Of a stretch of 9,653 nucleotides of DNA, positions 107 to 9,653 are shown one piece after another. Numbering within the stretch: position 1 is the stretch's first letter; each line of letters begins with the position of its first letter. The position numbers and the translations under genes were made by a program. A model generated the notes under the pieces. It saw only the letters and a program-made list of their open reading frames with translations, made no database searches and had not been told where the DNA came from. The stretch comes from a bacterium (GTDB lineage Bacteria; SZUA-182; DTGQ01), in assembly GCA_040755755.1 (NCBI GenBank), contig JBFLZW010000003.1, positions 1 to 9,653 of the forward strand, given 5' to 3'.

Positions 107-3070
107 TTATGGCGACCTGTACTTAGTTATTTTCCCCAACAACTCTTGAGCGTCTTTTTTCTCAGGGAATTCTTTTTGATTCGATAGTGCCTTATTTAAT
201 TCAACTGTGGCCTTTGCATTTTCTCCCTGGCGGAATAAGGCCAAGGCCAAATGAAACCTTATGGATGGATTTTCTTTATCCAGAGTAGCAGCTTGATTGA
301 ACCTATCTACAGCCTGATTGAATTTCCCCATTTTAAAATATACCCAGCCAATGGTGTCAATAACGGCTGGATTACCAGGATTCAGTTTGTCCGATTTCTG
401 TGCAAGTTCGAGAGATTGATCCAGGTTTTGTTCTCGGTCAGCATAGAACCAGGCGAGATCATTAAGAGCTCTGGCATTATTAGGGTCTAATAGAATAGAC
501 TTCTTATAAAAATCCTCCGCCTTTCCATAGTCTTTTTTATCTACGTAAGTACTCGCCAAAAAGAGGCTTACATAACTGTTCTTAGGATCTATTTTATTAA
601 GGATATATTGATATTGATCTATCGCCTGATCAGGTTTATTTTGTCGATTATAAGCAGTTCCAAGGTTTACCCTCAAATTTAAAGAATCAGGTAGTTTCTT
701 GATGCCCTTTTCCAGAGTATTGCAAGCCAATTCAGCCTGGCCTGATGACTGATAAACCGAGTAAAGCCTTAAGTATGTCTTTTCAAGATCGGGATTAGGA
801 TCTGTATCTATAGCCTTATTAAGGTAATCGATAGCCTCCTTGGTATTCCCCATCCTTAAGGATAATGTAGCCAGATCATTCAAAACAGCAGCACCGCTGA
901 CCTGTTTTTCAGAAATAATATCATCCAGTTTGGCTTTGGCCTTATCATGTTCCTTGTTAAGATTATAAGCATGGATCAAGAGCTCCCGGGCAGCAATGCT
1001 CTTTGGATTAGCCTTGGCTATCTTTTCAAATTCCGCAACAGCCAGGCCATACTCCTTATTCTTTAAATATGCTGAACCAAGAATGGTACCTGCCAGGTTT
1101 GAGTCCGGCATTACAGAGCTAACCTTCTTGGCCAGTTCGATGATCGACTTGACATCACCTTGTTCGGAGTAAACTTGAGCCAGCCGGGCAAAGGCGCTCT
1201 GATGTTTCGGATCTATGGAGAGAGCTTCCTGAAGCCTGTTGATTTCTTCCTTTTTATCTCCCGTTTTGGCATAAATTTCTGCCAGTCCCATAATTGCTTT
1301 AATATTCCTGGGATACTGTTTTAATATCCCTTGATATCTTTCAATAGCTTTGGCAGGTCCCCTTTCAAGGAGATCCAATTTGGCAAGATTGAATTGGGCT
1401 GTAAGGAATTTGGGATCTTCCGACAGAGACTTGTTCAAGCTCTCTCTGGCCTTATCGAAACGGCCCTGCTTAAGATATGACAAGCCAATAATATTATAAA
1501 ATAACCCACCCTGCTTGGGATTGGACTTCAGGGCATCAGAACAAATGTTGATTGCCTTATCCGGTGCATTCTGGTCTAAATAGGCCAGGGCCAGAGGAAC
1601 ATAGAGCTTCAGATTTTGGGGATTGATCGCGATTGCTGATTCGTAAATCTTGGTAACATCATCTTTCTGTTCACCCTTTTTCCGAAGAGCAGCCAGGTTC
1701 TGATGGGTCATGGTAAAATTGGGGTCCAGTTGCAGAGCCAATTGAAACTCATCTATTCCCTTATCCATCTTCTCGCTGCTGATATAGGCAATTCCCAGAA
1801 TATTGTGCAGATACGGATTATCAGGACTCAGATCGAGAGCCTTTTCTGCCTCGTTGATGGCAAACTCATATCGGTTAAGCTCGAGATTTATAGTGGCAAG
1901 CATTGTATGGGCGCCAATATGTTTGGGATCCAATTCGATCGCCTTCTGCAGTGCGCTGATACTCTGGTTCTTATTATTGACCTGATAATGGGCCAGACCA
2001 AGGAGATAATAGGAATTTACTCCCCCCGGATTTATCTGTACGGCTTTTTCAAGGTCTTCTATGGCTTCTCTGTATTGAGCTTTGACAAAATAAGCTCCAC
2101 CTCTCATATGATACCCGAAAGGCATCTTGGGGAACTTTTCAATAATCAGGCTTCCCTGTTTAATAGCTTCATCAAATTTCTTCTGCTGATTAAAGATGTC
2201 TCCTAGGGCAGCCATAGCCTCAAGCGAAGAAGGGTCTATCTTTAAAGTCTGCCGATACTGGTTTTCTGCTTCCTGGTACTCCTTCAACAGGTAGTAGTAC
2301 CGCCCCAAAGCCAGATATGGCCTGATATCCTTGGGTGATTTATCTCTGGCCATTTCAAAGGTCTTTTTGGCATCGACATAGTTTTTCATCTCCATGTACA
2401 GACCGCCCAGATTGATTAACACATGGATATTATCGGGATCCAATTTCAGGGAATTATCAAAATGTGAGTTGGCCAGGTTAAAATTCTTCATTGCAATATA
2501 GATTTGACCAAGCAAATTATGTATTTGGGACCCTTTTACTTCTGTTATCCCCTCAACCTGCTCTTTTCCCTTATTGAGCTCCAGGGCGGTCTTTGCTTCT
2601 TTCAATGCATTATCGAACTTCTTTTCAGCCAGATAGATAGAAGCTGATAAAAAATGAGCTTTGCTGTTACCAGGATCTTTGTCAATGACTTGCTTCAACT
2701 CCTGCATGGCATTATCCAATTTACCCGTAAGGAAATACGTTTCCCCCAGTTGAAGCCGGATAGAATAGTCACTCGGATCCATATCGAGTGCGCACTTGAA
2801 TTCAATAGTCGCAGCGTTGTAGTTCTTCTGTTCAAAAAATTTTACTCCCTCGGTCACATGTTCCTGCTTTGTCTTTCTACAGCCGCCAAGTGCAGGGATT
2901 AAGGCAAATAACCAGCATACTGTAGAAATAAGGAGCAATTTTTTAACTTTTATTGCTATACTACTGCCGGTATTGTTATGTTTATGGATGTTGCTGTATT
3001 TATAATTATATTTTTTTAATAATATTTTATAATCTTCCGTAAATTCAGCAATAAGATTTAACCATAGCAT
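107..3070 (-). CDS. Very long TPR-repeat lipoprotein, PEP-CTERM system PrsT type
   Basis: Encodes 987 residues from ATG at 3070, chosen because AGGAAAGG lies 9 nt upstream; a TTG two codons earlier (3076) is also possible. A hydrophobic segment at about residues 45-63 ends in a lipobox (LGGC, Cys about 64), so the protein should be an exported, lipid-anchored periplasmic or outer-membrane protein. The remainder is an almost unbroken run of roughly 25 tetratricopeptide repeats, with recurring A..L..A..LDP and G..Y...G..D.A patterns, forming a protein-binding superhelix. The length, lipobox and dense TPRs match the PEP-CTERM-associated TPR lipoprotein family (PrsT), found with exosortase-linked polysaccharide loci; the PEP-CTERM protein next door agrees. 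The exact partner is unknown. Oddity: 44 mostly polar and basic residues precede the signal hydrophobic stretch. TPR lipoprotein is secure; the PrsT assignment is by resemblance. Confidence 0.85.
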   Translation of the reverse strand: MLWLNLIAEFTEDYKILLKKYNYKYSNIHKHNNTGSSIAIKVKKLLLISTVCWLFALIPALGGCRKTKQEHVTEGVKFFEQKNYNAATIEFKCALDMDPSDYSIRLQLGETYFLTGKLDNAMQELKQVIDKDPGNSKAHFLSASIYLAEKKFDNALKEAKTALELNKGKEQVEGITEVKGSQIHNLLGQIYIAMKNFNLANSHFDNSLKLDPDNIHVLINLGGLYMEMKNYVDAKKTFEMARDKSPKDIRPYLALGRYYYLLKEYQEAENQYRQTLKIDPSSLEAMAALGDIFNQQKKFDEAIKQGSLIIEKFPKMPFGYHMRGGAYFVKAQYREAIEDLEKAVQINPGGVNSYYLLGLAHYQVNNKNQSISALQKAIELDPKHIGAHTMLATINLELNRYEFAINEAEKALDLSPDNPYLHNILGIAYISSEKMDKGIDEFQLALQLDPNFTMTHQNLAALRKKGEQKDDVTKIYESAIAINPQNLKLYVPLALAYLDQNAPDKAINICSDALKSNPKQGGLFYNIIGLSYLKQGRFDKARESLNKSLSEDPKFLTAQFNLAKLDLLERGPAKAIERYQGILKQYPRNIKAIMGLAEIYAKTGDKKEEINRLQEALSIDPKHQSAFARLAQVYSEQGDVKSIIELAKKVSSVMPDSNLAGTILGSAYLKNKEYGLAVAEFEKIAKANPKSIAARELLIHAYNLNKEHDKAKAKLDDIISEKQVSGAAVLNDLATLSLRMGNTKEAIDYLNKAIDTDPNPDLEKTYLRLYSVYQSSGQAELACNTLEKGIKKLPDSLNLRVNLGTAYNRQNKPDQAIDQYQYILNKIDPKNSYVSLFLASTYVDKKDYGKAEDFYKKSILLDPNNARALNDLAWFYADREQNLDQSLELAQKSDKLNPGNPAVIDTIGWVYFKMGKFNQAVDRFNQAATLDKENPSIRFHLALALFRQGENAKATVELNKALSNQKEFPEKKDAQELLGKITKYRSP

Positions 3071-3101
3071 AATCAATTACCTTTCCTTATTTTGTAAATT
3101 T

Positions 3102-3337: not shown

Positions 3338-3369
3338 TGTCGCTCTTTATATATTATATAACAGCGACA
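3338..3369. repeat. 32-bp near-perfect palindrome
   Basis: Outer arms TGTCGCT (3338-3344) and AGCGACA (3363-3369) are perfectly complementary. Inner arms TTATATA (3347-3353) and TATATAA (3355-3361) are also perfect around a single T. Two unpaired bases lie on one side and one on the other. It could extrude as a cruciform, or form a hairpin in RNA from either strand. It overlaps the end of the leader-like repeat at 3340-3440. Confidence 0.7.
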
Positions 3370-3440
3370 CCGAAACGGGACGATCCCAAGAAGATGGCTC
3401 TATTTATTCTTTAACTTCATGACAGTCTCTTTCTGTTGTT
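3340..3440 (-). repeat. Leader-like repeat, copy B (orphan)
   Basis: About 100 bp resembling 5445-5537 in the same orientation, roughly three quarters identical by eye with small gaps. Shared exact blocks occur in the same order: TCGCTCT, GACACCG, ACTTCATGA, GTCTCTTT and GTTGTT. Copy A is the leader just before the intact PEP-CTERM gene. Copy B lies downstream of the truncated paralogue, with no PEP gene after it. It may mark where a third PEP gene copy once stood, or it may be a regulatory element shared with the TPR gene about 270 bp further on. Confidence 0.6.
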
Positions 3441-3467
3441 CTAAAAGTAGAGGTTTATTTACCTCCA
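3441..3467 (-). terminator. Candidate intrinsic terminator after the PEP paralogue pair
   Basis: On the minus strand TGGAGGT pairs with ACCTCTA (7 bp, one G-U) across a 6-nt AT loop, followed after one base by TTTT. It is 64-90 nt beyond the stop codon at 3531 and in the right orientation to end a transcript carrying both PEP paralogues. The stem is short and the T-run modest. Confidence 0.42.
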
Positions 3468-3494
3468 TATACCCCACCTACAATAGTATGGTAT

Positions 3495-3530
3495 CTAAAC
3501 AAGAGAAAGTGAAAGAAGTAACAATGATGG
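3495..3530 (-). pseudogene. Decayed PEP-CTERM sorting tail behind an amber codon
   Basis: Reading in frame past the TAG stop (3533-3531) gives PSLLLLSLSLV and then a second TAG (3497-3495). The intact neighbour has VPEPSTLLLLG at the same place. Aligned codons are CCA-GAG-CCA-TCA in the intact gene and CCA-TAG-CCA-TCA here, so the stop replaces exactly the Glu codon of the PEP motif by one base change (G to T). The following Leu-rich codons are the remains of the transmembrane part. The second stop shows the tail is no longer maintained. Confidence 0.75.
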
Positions 3531-4391
3531 CTATGGTATCGGTATAACTGGTTCTGCTTCAATGACTATCGAAATAATATCAGATTGAACAGTATAGGCA
3601 TAGGCTTTGGCGCTGCTTTGCACATCCGTTGGCACAGTTGCTCTTACAATTTGAGCTAACTTTACATAAAAGTAATCACCTGTTTTAAAAGTAGTATTAT
3701 CTGTCTTAATACCGAGTGAACCTGGCAGTCCAAGGGATTCTTCCAATGTCCGCCTTCTCGTGCGATCGTTTATCCCGTCAGTGGTTAACGTATTAGAATA
3801 TGAAAAACTTATGACTGGGGCTGCTGTCGGATCCTTATATATCTCAAAGGCAAAATCTACTCGTGCCGTCCCTGATAAAAGGCCGGGCATATAACCAGTT
3901 AACCCCCCACTATTTAATATCCCAGAAAGTACAGCCTCTGCTGTTAATTCTACATTTATGCCGTAGTCCTCACCAGGGTCTGGGTTTAACCTATATCTGA
4001 TCATATCACCTGAATTCACTCCACTTCTCACTATGGCATAGGTCTCATAAGCGATGCCTTCATCTCCGGATGCACTTTGGGCCGTTGAATGAAGAATGAA
4101 TCTAACATGATTATCATTGTTTAATGGATTGTCAATCTTATCTCCACTTGCTTGTCCATATCCGTAAGCGCTAGTGCCTGCAAAAATGGCATCATCAGTG
4201 CTTACCCCTCGTGAAGCTTCCCAACCACTTGCAGACCACTTATAAGTTCCTTTGAATGTTGTGCCTGTCTCAGCATAAATTTCACCTGATATATAATCAA
4301 TCTGAATTGCCCATCCCAGTCGAGCACCCGAAAAGAATACAATAGAAGATACAAATATAATAAAGACTATCCATAATACTCTTTTATCCAT
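3531..4391 (-). CDS. Secreted paralogue of the PEP-CTERM protein, sorting tail lost
   Basis: 286 residues from ATG at 4391, chosen for the GAGGGGG ribosome binding site 8 nt upstream and the signal peptide that then starts properly (residues 1-28, Lys-Arg, hydrophobic core, cleavage after GWA). An in-frame ATG nine codons earlier (4418) is less likely. The mature protein is Gly/Ser/Thr-rich, apparently without Cys, with beta-strand-like alternation. It closely matches the product of 4475-5410 along its whole length, about two thirds identical by eye. It ends ...PVIPIP, where the paralogue continues VPEPST, because the Glu codon of the motif is TAG. The product should be exported but neither processed by exosortase nor membrane-held. 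It lies 83 bp downstream of its paralogue with no terminator between, so they are probably co-transcribed. Function unknown. Confidence 0.8.
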   Translation of the reverse strand: MDKRVLWIVFIIFVSSIVFFSGARLGWAIQIDYISGEIYAETGTTFKGTYKWSASGWEASRGVSTDDAIFAGTSAYGYGQASGDKIDNPLNNDNHVRFILHSTAQSASGDEGIAYETYAIVRSGVNSGDMIRYRLNPDPGEDYGINVELTAEAVLSGILNSGGLTGYMPGLLSGTARVDFAFEIYKDPTAAPVISFSYSNTLTTDGINDRTRRRTLEESLGLPGSLGIKTDNTTFKTGDYFYVKLAQIVRATVPTDVQSSAKAYAYTVQSDIISIVIEAEPVIPIP

Positions 4392-4474: not shown

Positions 4475-5410
4475 TCATTTCGAGAGTGAGCCGATTTTCA
4501 AAGTAATAACACCAAAAATTCCAACGAGAGTGATACCTAAAAGAAGCAAGGTTGATGGCTCTGGTACTGGTGTAGTAGTAGGGTCTGCATGAATAGCTAT
4601 CGAAGTCGATTGAACAGCATAGGCACTGGCGCTGCTTTGGTAATCCCCTGACACAGATGCTCTGGCAATTTGAGCGAAATATACATAGATGGAATCACCT
4701 ATGTTAAAGGTAGTATTGTCTACCTTGGTACCGAGTAAACCTGGCAGTCCAACGGATTCTGTCAATGTCGGTCTCCCAGTTGTATTGTTTCTCCCGTCAG
4801 AGGTTAATGTATTATAATGCGAAAAACTCATGACTGCGTCTTCTGACGGGTCCGCATATATTTCAAAAGTAAAATCTATTTCTGCTGTCCCTGATAAAAG
4901 TCCAGGCATATAACCAGCCAACCCCCCGCTATTTATTGTCCCTGAGAGCACAGCCTCTGCTGTTAATTCCACACCCATGCCGTAATCCTCACCAGGACCG
5001 GGAGTTAACACAAATTTAAGCATATCGCCTGGATTCACTCCACTTCTCACTATGGCATAGGTCTCATAAGCGATGCCTTCATCTCCGGCTGCACTTTGGG
5101 CCGTTGAATGAAGAATGAATCTGGCGTGGTTGTCATTATTTAATGGACCATTGATCTTATATCCACTTGCCTGTCCATATCCGTAAGCGCTAGTGCCTGC
5201 AAAAATGGCATCATCAGTGCTAACTCCTCCTGAAGCCTCCCAACCAGTTGCAGACTTCACATAGTTTCCATTGAATGTTGTACCTGTCTCAGCATAAATC
5301 ACACCTGATACATACTCGATCTGTATTGCCCAACTCAGTCGAGCACCCCCCAAAATTAGAATAATGCATAAAAATACAGCGTTTCTTATCCACAATATCC
5401 TTTTATTCAT
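4475..5410 (-). CDS. PEP-CTERM sorting-domain secreted protein
   Basis: 311 residues from ATG at 5410, chosen for AAAGGAGT about 8 nt upstream; an ATG 17 codons earlier (5461) would place a polar stretch before the signal peptide. The signal peptide covers residues 1-28 (MNKRILW, hydrophobic core, SWA). The C-terminus has the three parts of a PEP-CTERM signal: VPEPST, a hydrophobic helix of about 20 residues, and a tail ending LKIGSLSK. The tail is weakly basic compared with the usual Arg cluster. Such signals are recognised by exosortase, typically in exopolysaccharide-producing Gram-negatives, and the protein is then released into or anchored in the matrix. The 250-residue mature domain is not one I recognise; it is Gly/Ser/Thr-rich and probably beta-sandwich-like. 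It precedes its truncated paralogue and follows leader copy A. Confidence 0.85.
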   Translation of the reverse strand: MNKRILWIRNAVFLCIILILGGARLSWAIQIEYVSGVIYAETGTTFNGNYVKSATGWEASGGVSTDDAIFAGTSAYGYGQASGYKINGPLNNDNHARFILHSTAQSAAGDEGIAYETYAIVRSGVNPGDMLKFVLTPGPGEDYGMGVELTAEAVLSGTINSGGLAGYMPGLLSGTAEIDFTFEIYADPSEDAVMSFSHYNTLTSDGRNNTTGRPTLTESVGLPGLLGTKVDNTTFNIGDSIYVYFAQIARASVSGDYQSSASAYAVQSTSIAIHADPTTTPVPEPSTLLLLGITLVGIFGVITLKIGSLSK

Positions 5411-5444: not shown

Positions 5445-5537
5445 TCGCTCTCATACAGCATGACACCGGAATGGAGAATTCCCGAAGAAAGATGACTGTA
5501 TTTTTCGACTTCATGAGCGTCTCTTTATTTCGTTGTT
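5445..5537 (-). repeat. Leader-like repeat, copy A, ahead of the PEP-CTERM gene
   Basis: Matches 3340-3440 with conserved blocks in the same order. On the minus strand it forms the untranslated leader or promoter-proximal region of the PEP-CTERM gene, ending 34 nt before the start codon. Both copies contain a small hairpin at the same place, with different bases: GGAAT...ATTCC here, GGGA...TCCC in copy B. This hints that RNA pairing is what is kept. A 29-codon frame starting at 5514 is not conserved in copy B. Confidence 0.55.
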
Positions 5538-5888
5538 TATAACGATGGTGTCTAATAAATGAGAGCGACCTGTTTTAATAAATTGACAATATTAACTTAA
5601 CTATAGAGACTTTCTTTTCCTTGCTACCTAACGTTTTTCATAAACCTATCCCGCCTGCTTAGAGATAAGGAACTATTTTTAAGGAATGAGGTGGGGAAAA
5701 TATTACCTTCTGGTTATGTAAGGTCAACATTCCTCTCTTCCTTATGGTAGCTCGGCATGGCGAAAGGCTGAACGATTACTATGATTCTAATTACCTTTTT
5801 TTAAGATTAATGCATTTTAAATGCCATTTCCTAATTACCTGATATTTAAGGCTATTAACCATTCTCAAACCTAAATTATCTAAGAATA

Positions 5889-6415: not shown

Positions 6416-7720
6416 TTAAAAATCTCCTGGTGAGTTTTCCCGAAAGAGGCAATCCGTGATAGTTGGAGACGAATTGTCGAGATAAATTCCACCGCCGGAG
6501 TCAGCTGAATTTCTTTCAATAGTACATTTAGTTACGACCAAGTCATTTGAAGATGAGCAGTAAATCCCTCCCCCCATCGATGAAGCCGAATTACCATGAA
6601 TAAGGGTGTTGGTTATACTTGAAGAAGAGTCAAGGCAGTAAATTCCACCACCATCATACCCAGCAGAATTCTCAGTGATGTTGCAGTCACTGACTGGCGA
6701 TGAGGAAAGCACAAGCAAAATCCCACCGCCATCATACAGCGTCGAGTTTTTACTAATGGTACAGCTGGTGATGGCTGATGACGAAAACCCGCAATAAACT
6801 CCACCAGCGACCCAGGTAGACGAATTTTCACTGATATTGCAATTCTTAATAGCTGCTGAGGAACCCATGCAACAAATACCACCACCATATTTAGCTGAAT
6901 TTCCAGTGATAGTACAGTTGGTAATAACCGGAGAAGAGGTGCAATAAATTCCACCGCCCATACTACCTTTACCGTTTTGCACAGTAATTCCACTGAGAAT
7001 CGAATCGCTTTCTTCATCAGTATTGAAAGTAATAACAACTCCGCTCCCCCCTCCATCAATTATCGTCGCAGCAACTACATCCGGGTTATTCGGATCCGCA
7101 CTCTTCACGGTAATGGCCTTGCCTTTAAAATTAATCTTTTCATGATAAATCCCTTCGTGAATAATTATCACATCACCATCATGGGCAGCCTCGATTGCTG
7201 CCTGAATGCTCTGTCCAGGGTATATATGGACTTCGATACATATATTCTTAATATTAAAATTGTCATCGTTACAATCATCAGCATTATCCACATATCCTAA
7301 TGGGCAAGAGCCAGTTTGTGTGCACTCTTGTATAGCAATATCAGGATTCCCATAGCCATCTTTATCATTATCTTGGTAGCAGATTCGACATATCAATTCA
7401 TCTGAGGGTTCACTTTCGAGGTCCACGTTATCATAAGCAGTGATCCAACAAACATACGTTTCTCCAGAGTCCAATTCTTGAATCGTATAACTGGTGGTAT
7501 CACGGTTAACTTTAATGCACTCAGGGTAACTGCTGGAAGAGTCTACCTTATAATAAATACAATATCCAGCAAGATCATCGTCTTCGCTATTGGCATCCCA
7601 GGCAAGTGGAATACTCCGTGGACATATATCACTCAATGCCCTGCTTGGATTCAAAAGGCAAAAATATAAAATTCCTGCCAGCATAATTTTCCCAAGAAAT
7701 CTTGTGCCATTTATATTCAT
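6416..7720 (-). CDS. Secreted FN3 / MopE-motif / parallel beta-helix protein
   Basis: 434 residues from ATG at 7720, with GGGGGA 5 nt upstream. Signal peptide about residues 1-30. Residues 37-108 look like a fibronectin type III domain (PLAWDAN, TSYTI..LDSGETYVCWITAYD). Residues 114-158 form a MopE-type putative metal-binding motif (YQDNDKDGYG ... GYVDNADDCNDD), Asp-rich and Ca-binding-like. Residues 165-232 are the usual N-terminal part of right-handed beta-helix proteins (AIEAAHDGDVIIIHEGIY). From residue 255 come seven beta-helix turns beginning GGGIYC or similar and containing I..C.I..NSA; the first is 24 residues and the next six exactly 26. The protein stops at the last residue of unit seven, with no cap, sorting signal or anchor. 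It may be an adhesin, matrix protein or carbohydrate-active protein; no catalytic residues could be identified. Possibly 3'-truncated by transposon-related rearrangement. Confidence 0.85.
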   Translation of the reverse strand: MNINGTRFLGKIMLAGILYFCLLNPSRALSDICPRSIPLAWDANSEDDDLAGYCIYYKVDSSSSYPECIKVNRDTTSYTIQELDSGETYVCWITAYDNVDLESEPSDELICRICYQDNDKDGYGNPDIAIQECTQTGSCPLGYVDNADDCNDDNFNIKNICIEVHIYPGQSIQAAIEAAHDGDVIIIHEGIYHEKINFKGKAITVKSADPNNPDVVAATIIDGGGSGVVITFNTDEESDSILSGITVQNGKGSMGGGIYCTSSPVITNCTITGNSAKYGGGICCMGSSAAIKNCNISENSSTWVAGGVYCGFSSSAITSCTISKNSTLYDGGGILLVLSSSPVSDCNITENSAGYDGGGIYCLDSSSSITNTLIHGNSASSMGGGIYCSSSNDLVVTKCTIERNSADSGGGIYLDNSSPTITDCLFRENSPGDF

Positions 7721-9533: not shown

Positions 9534-9653
9534 TGTCAATCGAAAATTCCCCCACCGTGACAGCCGAAAATTCCCCCACCCCCAAATTATAAATTTATAA
9601 AATAGTTAACAAGTGAAATTAGTTGTTGAGATTGTGAATAGGGTGGAAACCTC
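9534..9653 (+). mobile_element. Putative terminus of an IS21-family insertion sequence
   Basis: The 16-bp core CGAAAATTCCCCCACC occurs at 9541-9556 and again at 9565-9580, a 24-bp period. Each is preceded by a related TGTCA / TGACA word (9534 and 9558). Repeated subterminal copies of the terminal sequence, an outer TG and a C-rich run are typical of IS21-family ends, where IstA binds several sites. A perfect 14-bp palindrome, TTATAAATTTATAA, follows at 9587-9600. No istA coding sequence is yet visible, so the element body, if real, lies to the right of the window. Identification is from pattern memory. Confidence 0.5.
9541..9580 (+). repeat. Two direct copies of a 16-bp G/C-run repeat
   Basis: Exact copies at 9541-9556 and 9565-9580, with similar flanks so that 20 of 23 bases match between 9534-9556 and 9558-9580. 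Interpreted as transposase-binding repeats at an IS end. Confidence 0.9.

Follow-up and report, generated by a model that had tools for sequence, protein, structure and literature searches.

The analysed window, a whole contig of 9,653 nt in a draft genome of 88 contigs, carries two genes, A and B, which we read as tandem paralogues for exported PEP-CTERM proteins lying upstream of a prsT-like gene. Gene B has lost its tail, to all appearances through a degenerate IS1595-type MITE together with an amber codon, and may still be exported as a soluble protein; we put the probability of this whole account at about 0.7. A sequence-only reading of the same DNA had attributed the loss of the sorting signal to one base change. 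At least two lesions are involved, and the larger of them is the element (3518-3338), which begins about four codons past the amber. In the mechanism that we propose, a G-to-T change would have turned the motif Glu codon of B into TAG, and the MITE would have taken the place of B's membrane helix and basic end and added a further in-frame TAG.

The paralogues and their sorting system

The two genes, two segments of gene B and two neighbouring features were mapped as follows.

4475..5410, minus strand: gene A, encoding an intact PEP-CTERM protein of 311 aa that starts MNKRILW
3531..4391, minus strand: gene B, encoding the paralogue without a tail, 286 aa if counted from the likely start MDKRVLW (4391)
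4308..4391, minus strand: signal-peptide-like N-terminus kept in B, MDKRVLWIVFIIFVSSIVFFSGARLGWA, read from the sequence and matching MNKRILWIRNAVFLCIILILGGARLSWA of A
3495..3530, minus strand: post-amber remnant of B, with PSLL belonging to the native tail and the following LLSLSLV plus the second TAG (3497-3495) to the left end of the element
107..3076, minus strand: prsT-like gene for a TPR lipoprotein of the PEP-CTERM/XrtA system (TIGR02917, 527.7 bits, cutoff 312.2), downstream of B in the same direction
5811..5826, minus strand: candidate sigma-54 (-24/-12) site TGGCATTTAAAATGCA, about 400 nt upstream of A, a consensus match only

The C-terminal tail of gene A, PEPSTLLLLGITLVGIFGVITLKIGSLSK (4564-4478), carries the motif codons CCA-GAG-CCA-TCA, with the Glu codon GAG at 4561-4559. 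The same tail, written out as VPEPSTLLLLGITLVGIFGVITLKIGSLSK, passes the cutoffs of both PF07589 (23.9 bits, cutoff 20.7) and TIGR02595 (18.7 bits, cutoff 16). It ends in LKIGSLSK, with two Lys only; other tails in the genome end in RKKS, KKRVRRG and the like. A basic start, a hydrophobic core and an SWA-IQ site can be recognised by eye at the N-terminus. The best-scoring named family for A was that of the PepA flocculation PEP-CTERM protein (NF033554; PMC9850573), but the 24.9 bits obtained, which may come mostly from the tail, fall far under the cutoff of 80, and B does not match this family.

The A and B proteins are 69% identical over 293 aa. Gene B, which has 295 codons if counted from its first ATG (4418), ends in EAEPVIPIP-TAG, with the amber codon (3533-3531) in place of the Glu of the PEP motif. 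Its motif codons read CCA-TAG-CCA-TCA, and since 11 of 12 letters match at CCANAGCCATCA, B must once have carried the motif. The sequence-only reading had these letters and coordinates right in both genes, and it had correctly read the 11 codons PSLLLLSLSLV followed by a second TAG (3530-3495) as well as a secreted domain open for 286 codons, which holds when the count begins at MDKRVLW. It had also singled out the amber as falling exactly on the Glu. The position is correct but unremarkable: in A's tail a single change would suffice to create a stop at any of ten codons, GAG being the only such codon within Pro-Glu-Pro. Neither in Pfam nor in the library that includes TIGR02595 did any family match B even at E ≤ 10.

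Relatives of A and B were sought in nine genomes of the phylum and in 386 wider genomes, genomic contigs and viral contigs, and beyond weak matches centred on the tail none appeared outside this locus. An AlphaFold2 model built from the two sequences was unusable (pLDDT 38), the solved structures gave no credible match, and no Rfam RNA family was found within the window.

A protein without the tail that is exported by Sec arrives in the periplasm. As B has a signal-peptide-like start and nothing for an exosortase to recognise, it should, if translated, be released there in soluble form. The earlier proposal of a switch from exosortase substrate to freely secreted protein holds in so far as the exosortase tag is lost and the exported domain is open, but "freely" is too strong for a product led by Sec to the periplasm.

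The sorting system itself is present, since three Exosortase_EpsH matches over the cutoff and several further PEP-CTERM tails were found in the genome, which also encodes PrsK- and PrsR-like proteins. This set, together with PrsT, resembles the PEP-CTERM/exosortase EpsH/XrtA system (TIGR02595/PF07589 with PrsT/PrsK/PrsR; Haft 2006, PMC1569441), to which A conforms by its signal-peptide-like N-terminus, PEP motif and hydrophobic tail; B, in contrast, has lost the Glu and with it the PEP motif, has neither membrane helix nor basic end, and does not qualify as a PEP-CTERM protein. Under the published model (PMC1569441, PMC12188702), A would leave the cytoplasm through Sec, stay anchored in the inner membrane by its tail and undergo processing by the exosortase, the outer-membrane route of PEP-CTERM proteins being itself unclear (PMC12188702). 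Two prsT-like genes occur in the genome (window 107-3076; G000 C10:85164-87884), each with one or more PEP-CTERM genes just upstream in the same direction.

The sigma-54-like site upstream of A would fit Prs control of an A-B transcript. Sites of the form TGGCATnnnnnWTGCA were also seen at L031:9110-9125 and L032:8409-8424 and in L006, L007 and L010. Several PEP-CTERM genes of this small phylum, in which PrsT, PrsK- and PrsR-like genes occur as well, have this sigma-54-type site upstream of them or nearby; the 2006 description confined the motif to Proteobacteria (PMC1569441). Elsewhere in the window, the product of 6416-7720 is probably exported; it has polymorphic-outer-membrane-type repeats and a fibronectin type III domain, may form a beta-helix and gives no PEP-CTERM match. 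At its end (9541-9653) the contig carries repeated CGAAAATTCCCCCACC-like sequence, which may mark the terminus of a further insertion sequence.

A degenerate MITE at the 3' end of gene B

Two copies of one element family flank the paralogues.

5445..5568, minus strand: U, well-preserved MITE copy of 124 nt, in the 5' leader of gene A
3338..3518, minus strand: U', a degenerate copy of an IS1595-type MITE, at the 3' end of B, with its core at 3442-3363 and its right inverted repeat near 3338-3367

The left end of U, TCGCTCTCATTTATTAGACACC, recurs without a difference in copies on other contigs, and with its paired terminal inverted repeats, several copies and no transposase U has the properties of a MITE. 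Inverted-repeat pairs of the TCGCTCTCATTTATTAGACACC type bound elements of 399 nt (C13:70243-70641) and 180 nt (C71:688-867) in this genome (G000), in which family copies also lie at the ends of C21, C27, C55 and C64; several draft contigs stop about 90-165 nt into a copy, which makes the family a probable cause of breaks in the assembly. In the same-genus genome G001, with copies on C20, C24, C26, C84 and C122, paired ends of this type bound elements of 91-122 nt, and one end is immediately followed by a gene whose product has the zinc ribbon of IS1595 transposases (PF12760, 30.2 bits, cutoff 25.4). Because of this adjacency, U-type elements are best read as IS1595-type MITEs, and the family is spread across the genus. 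U and U' share with IS1595-family ISs and MITEs their short length and paired TCGCTCTCATTTATTAG-type inverted repeats; they differ in carrying no transposase, in target-site duplications that are imperfect or unrecognisable and, for U', in degeneracy. The right end of U (5445-5461) supplies a spurious in-frame ATG, and automatic calling consequently starts the open reading frame of A at 5461, 17 codons before its likely start. The repeat around A and B had also been considered as a shared promoter and as a leader left behind by a third, lost copy of the gene, and both candidates were dropped after the inverted repeats and the copies in other contigs were found.

The core of U' matched an HMM of U and three G001 copies with E = 6.4e-11. 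Its left end matched that of the G001:C84 copy at 23/34, the best ungapped match in the window and a score reached by none of 1620 null genomic regions of like composition. When a TIR profile was built from sequences outside the window, each of the four ends of U and U' was among the top 5 sites of the window, the recognisable right end of U' ranking third. As its core and its two ends all resemble the family, U' can be identified as an IS1595-type MITE. About 35 extra nt lie between its left end and its core, the left end was not joined to the core in one HMM match, and a weaker left-end-like stretch beside the core is conceivable. A target-site duplication was sought as a direct repeat in the flanks of U' and was not found; it may have eroded in an old copy, and we therefore infer the insertion itself. 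The cores of U and U' differ by about 0.17 substitutions per site (range 0.09-0.28), a value too imprecise to date the insertion.

The left end of U' overlaps the last readable codons of B and carries the second TAG. Had the tag been removed by a single recent base change, the DNA beyond the stop should still be about as close to A's tail as the two domains are to each other (81% nucleotide identity). It is not: the stretch 3515-3486 shows no resemblance to A's tail (null fraction 0.53-0.71), whereas it does resemble the left end of U (null fraction 0.005-0.007). Aligning both genes, as had been suggested, bore out the match at the motif, but similarity in the tail ends about four codons after the amber, and a continuation of A's tail beyond U' was looked for and not found. 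Since the element begins at this very point and includes the second TAG, the helix and basic end would have been replaced by it, the amber being a separate lesion. The element may have destroyed the tail before or after the amber arose, as either order fits, and the present 3' end would fit both an insertion with later loss and a recombination at the element.

This arrangement also bears on two simpler explanations of the stop in B. The assembly is a draft, in which a sequencing or assembly error can be imagined; one mistake, however, cannot produce a second TAG and complete divergence of the tail, and we regard an error as very improbable. It is less credible again, to the point of being negligible, that TAG is read as an amino acid, through pyrrolysine or a recoded stop, to give B a full-length tail. 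Readthrough of both TAGs does stay open as far as IPYYCRWGIWR before a TAA, but the DNA at and beyond the second TAG is element and not tail. TAG is moreover an ordinary stop codon in this genome, as in L006 and L011, where it follows the tails of PEP-CTERM genes, and the pyrrolysine or recoding reading was rejected with a best pyrrolysyl-tRNA synthetase score in the genome of 25.9 bits against a cutoff of 178.

A partial parallel to U' is offered by the enterobacterial RU repeats inside genes (Delihas 2007, PMC2759123), in which a small mobile repeat likewise enters a reading frame and contributes codons. The RU repeats are a separately described family, and U' instead removes a sorting signal. 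Our literature search found no account of PEP-CTERM genes hit by MITEs.

Selection on gene B and its present state

The domains of A and B are about 81% identical at the nucleotide level, with a pairwise dN of 0.18, dS of 0.33 and dN/dS of 0.55 (95% 0.38-0.79), a ratio that would suit two moderately constrained copies as well as a constrained A paired with a drifting B. The domain of B contains no internal stop, the indels inside the alignment are in frame and no frameshift separates the copies. Under neutrality from the duplication onwards, the domain of B should have gathered 3.4-5.0 stops, and 0 are seen (probability 0.005-0.03), a count that cannot date the end of B's protection. The absence of domain stops, together with the in-frame indels, makes it probable that B enjoyed protection over a large part of its history.

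Whether B is protected at present is a different matter. That it is a young pseudogene, its stop marking early decay and its open domain a leftover, is a serious possibility at somewhat less than even odds, and one compatible with the MITE account. The pairwise dN/dS is raised, as for a constrained A and a drifting B, two lesions lie at the 3' end of B, and our search yielded no relatives that could show conservation. The missing stops and the lack of a frameshift between the copies argue against it, albeit that decay of recent onset still fits the stop count. Early decay, given as the alternative in the sequence-only reading, is thus weakened but keeps some probability: the tail has fully diverged while the domain retains its identity and its open frame.

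We consider it rather unlikely that B has instead been kept as a functional soluble partner, so that a sorted A and an unsorted B form a pair in one operon. The 286-codon frame is open and its signal-peptide-like N-terminus retained, only 83 nt separate A's stop from B's likely start, and no internal stop has appeared despite the dS of 0.33. No orthologues were found, however, nor any sign of selection for the tail loss itself, and recent decay would give an identical pattern. A fuller version, in which a mobile element made one of two co-transcribed exosortase substrates soluble, this form has since been kept and both forms are made together under PrsR/sigma-54 control, is more doubtful still.

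We conclude that B is a new example of already known processes, an ordinary kind of gene damage that leaves an exported domain readable and maybe still working. It also illustrates that a stop codon spotted by eye can conceal a bigger adjoining lesion. A decaying B would be an ordinary pseudogene of little consequence; if B is expressed, A and B would constitute a natural experiment on the PEP-CTERM tail, with one domain at one locus present with and without the sorting signal.
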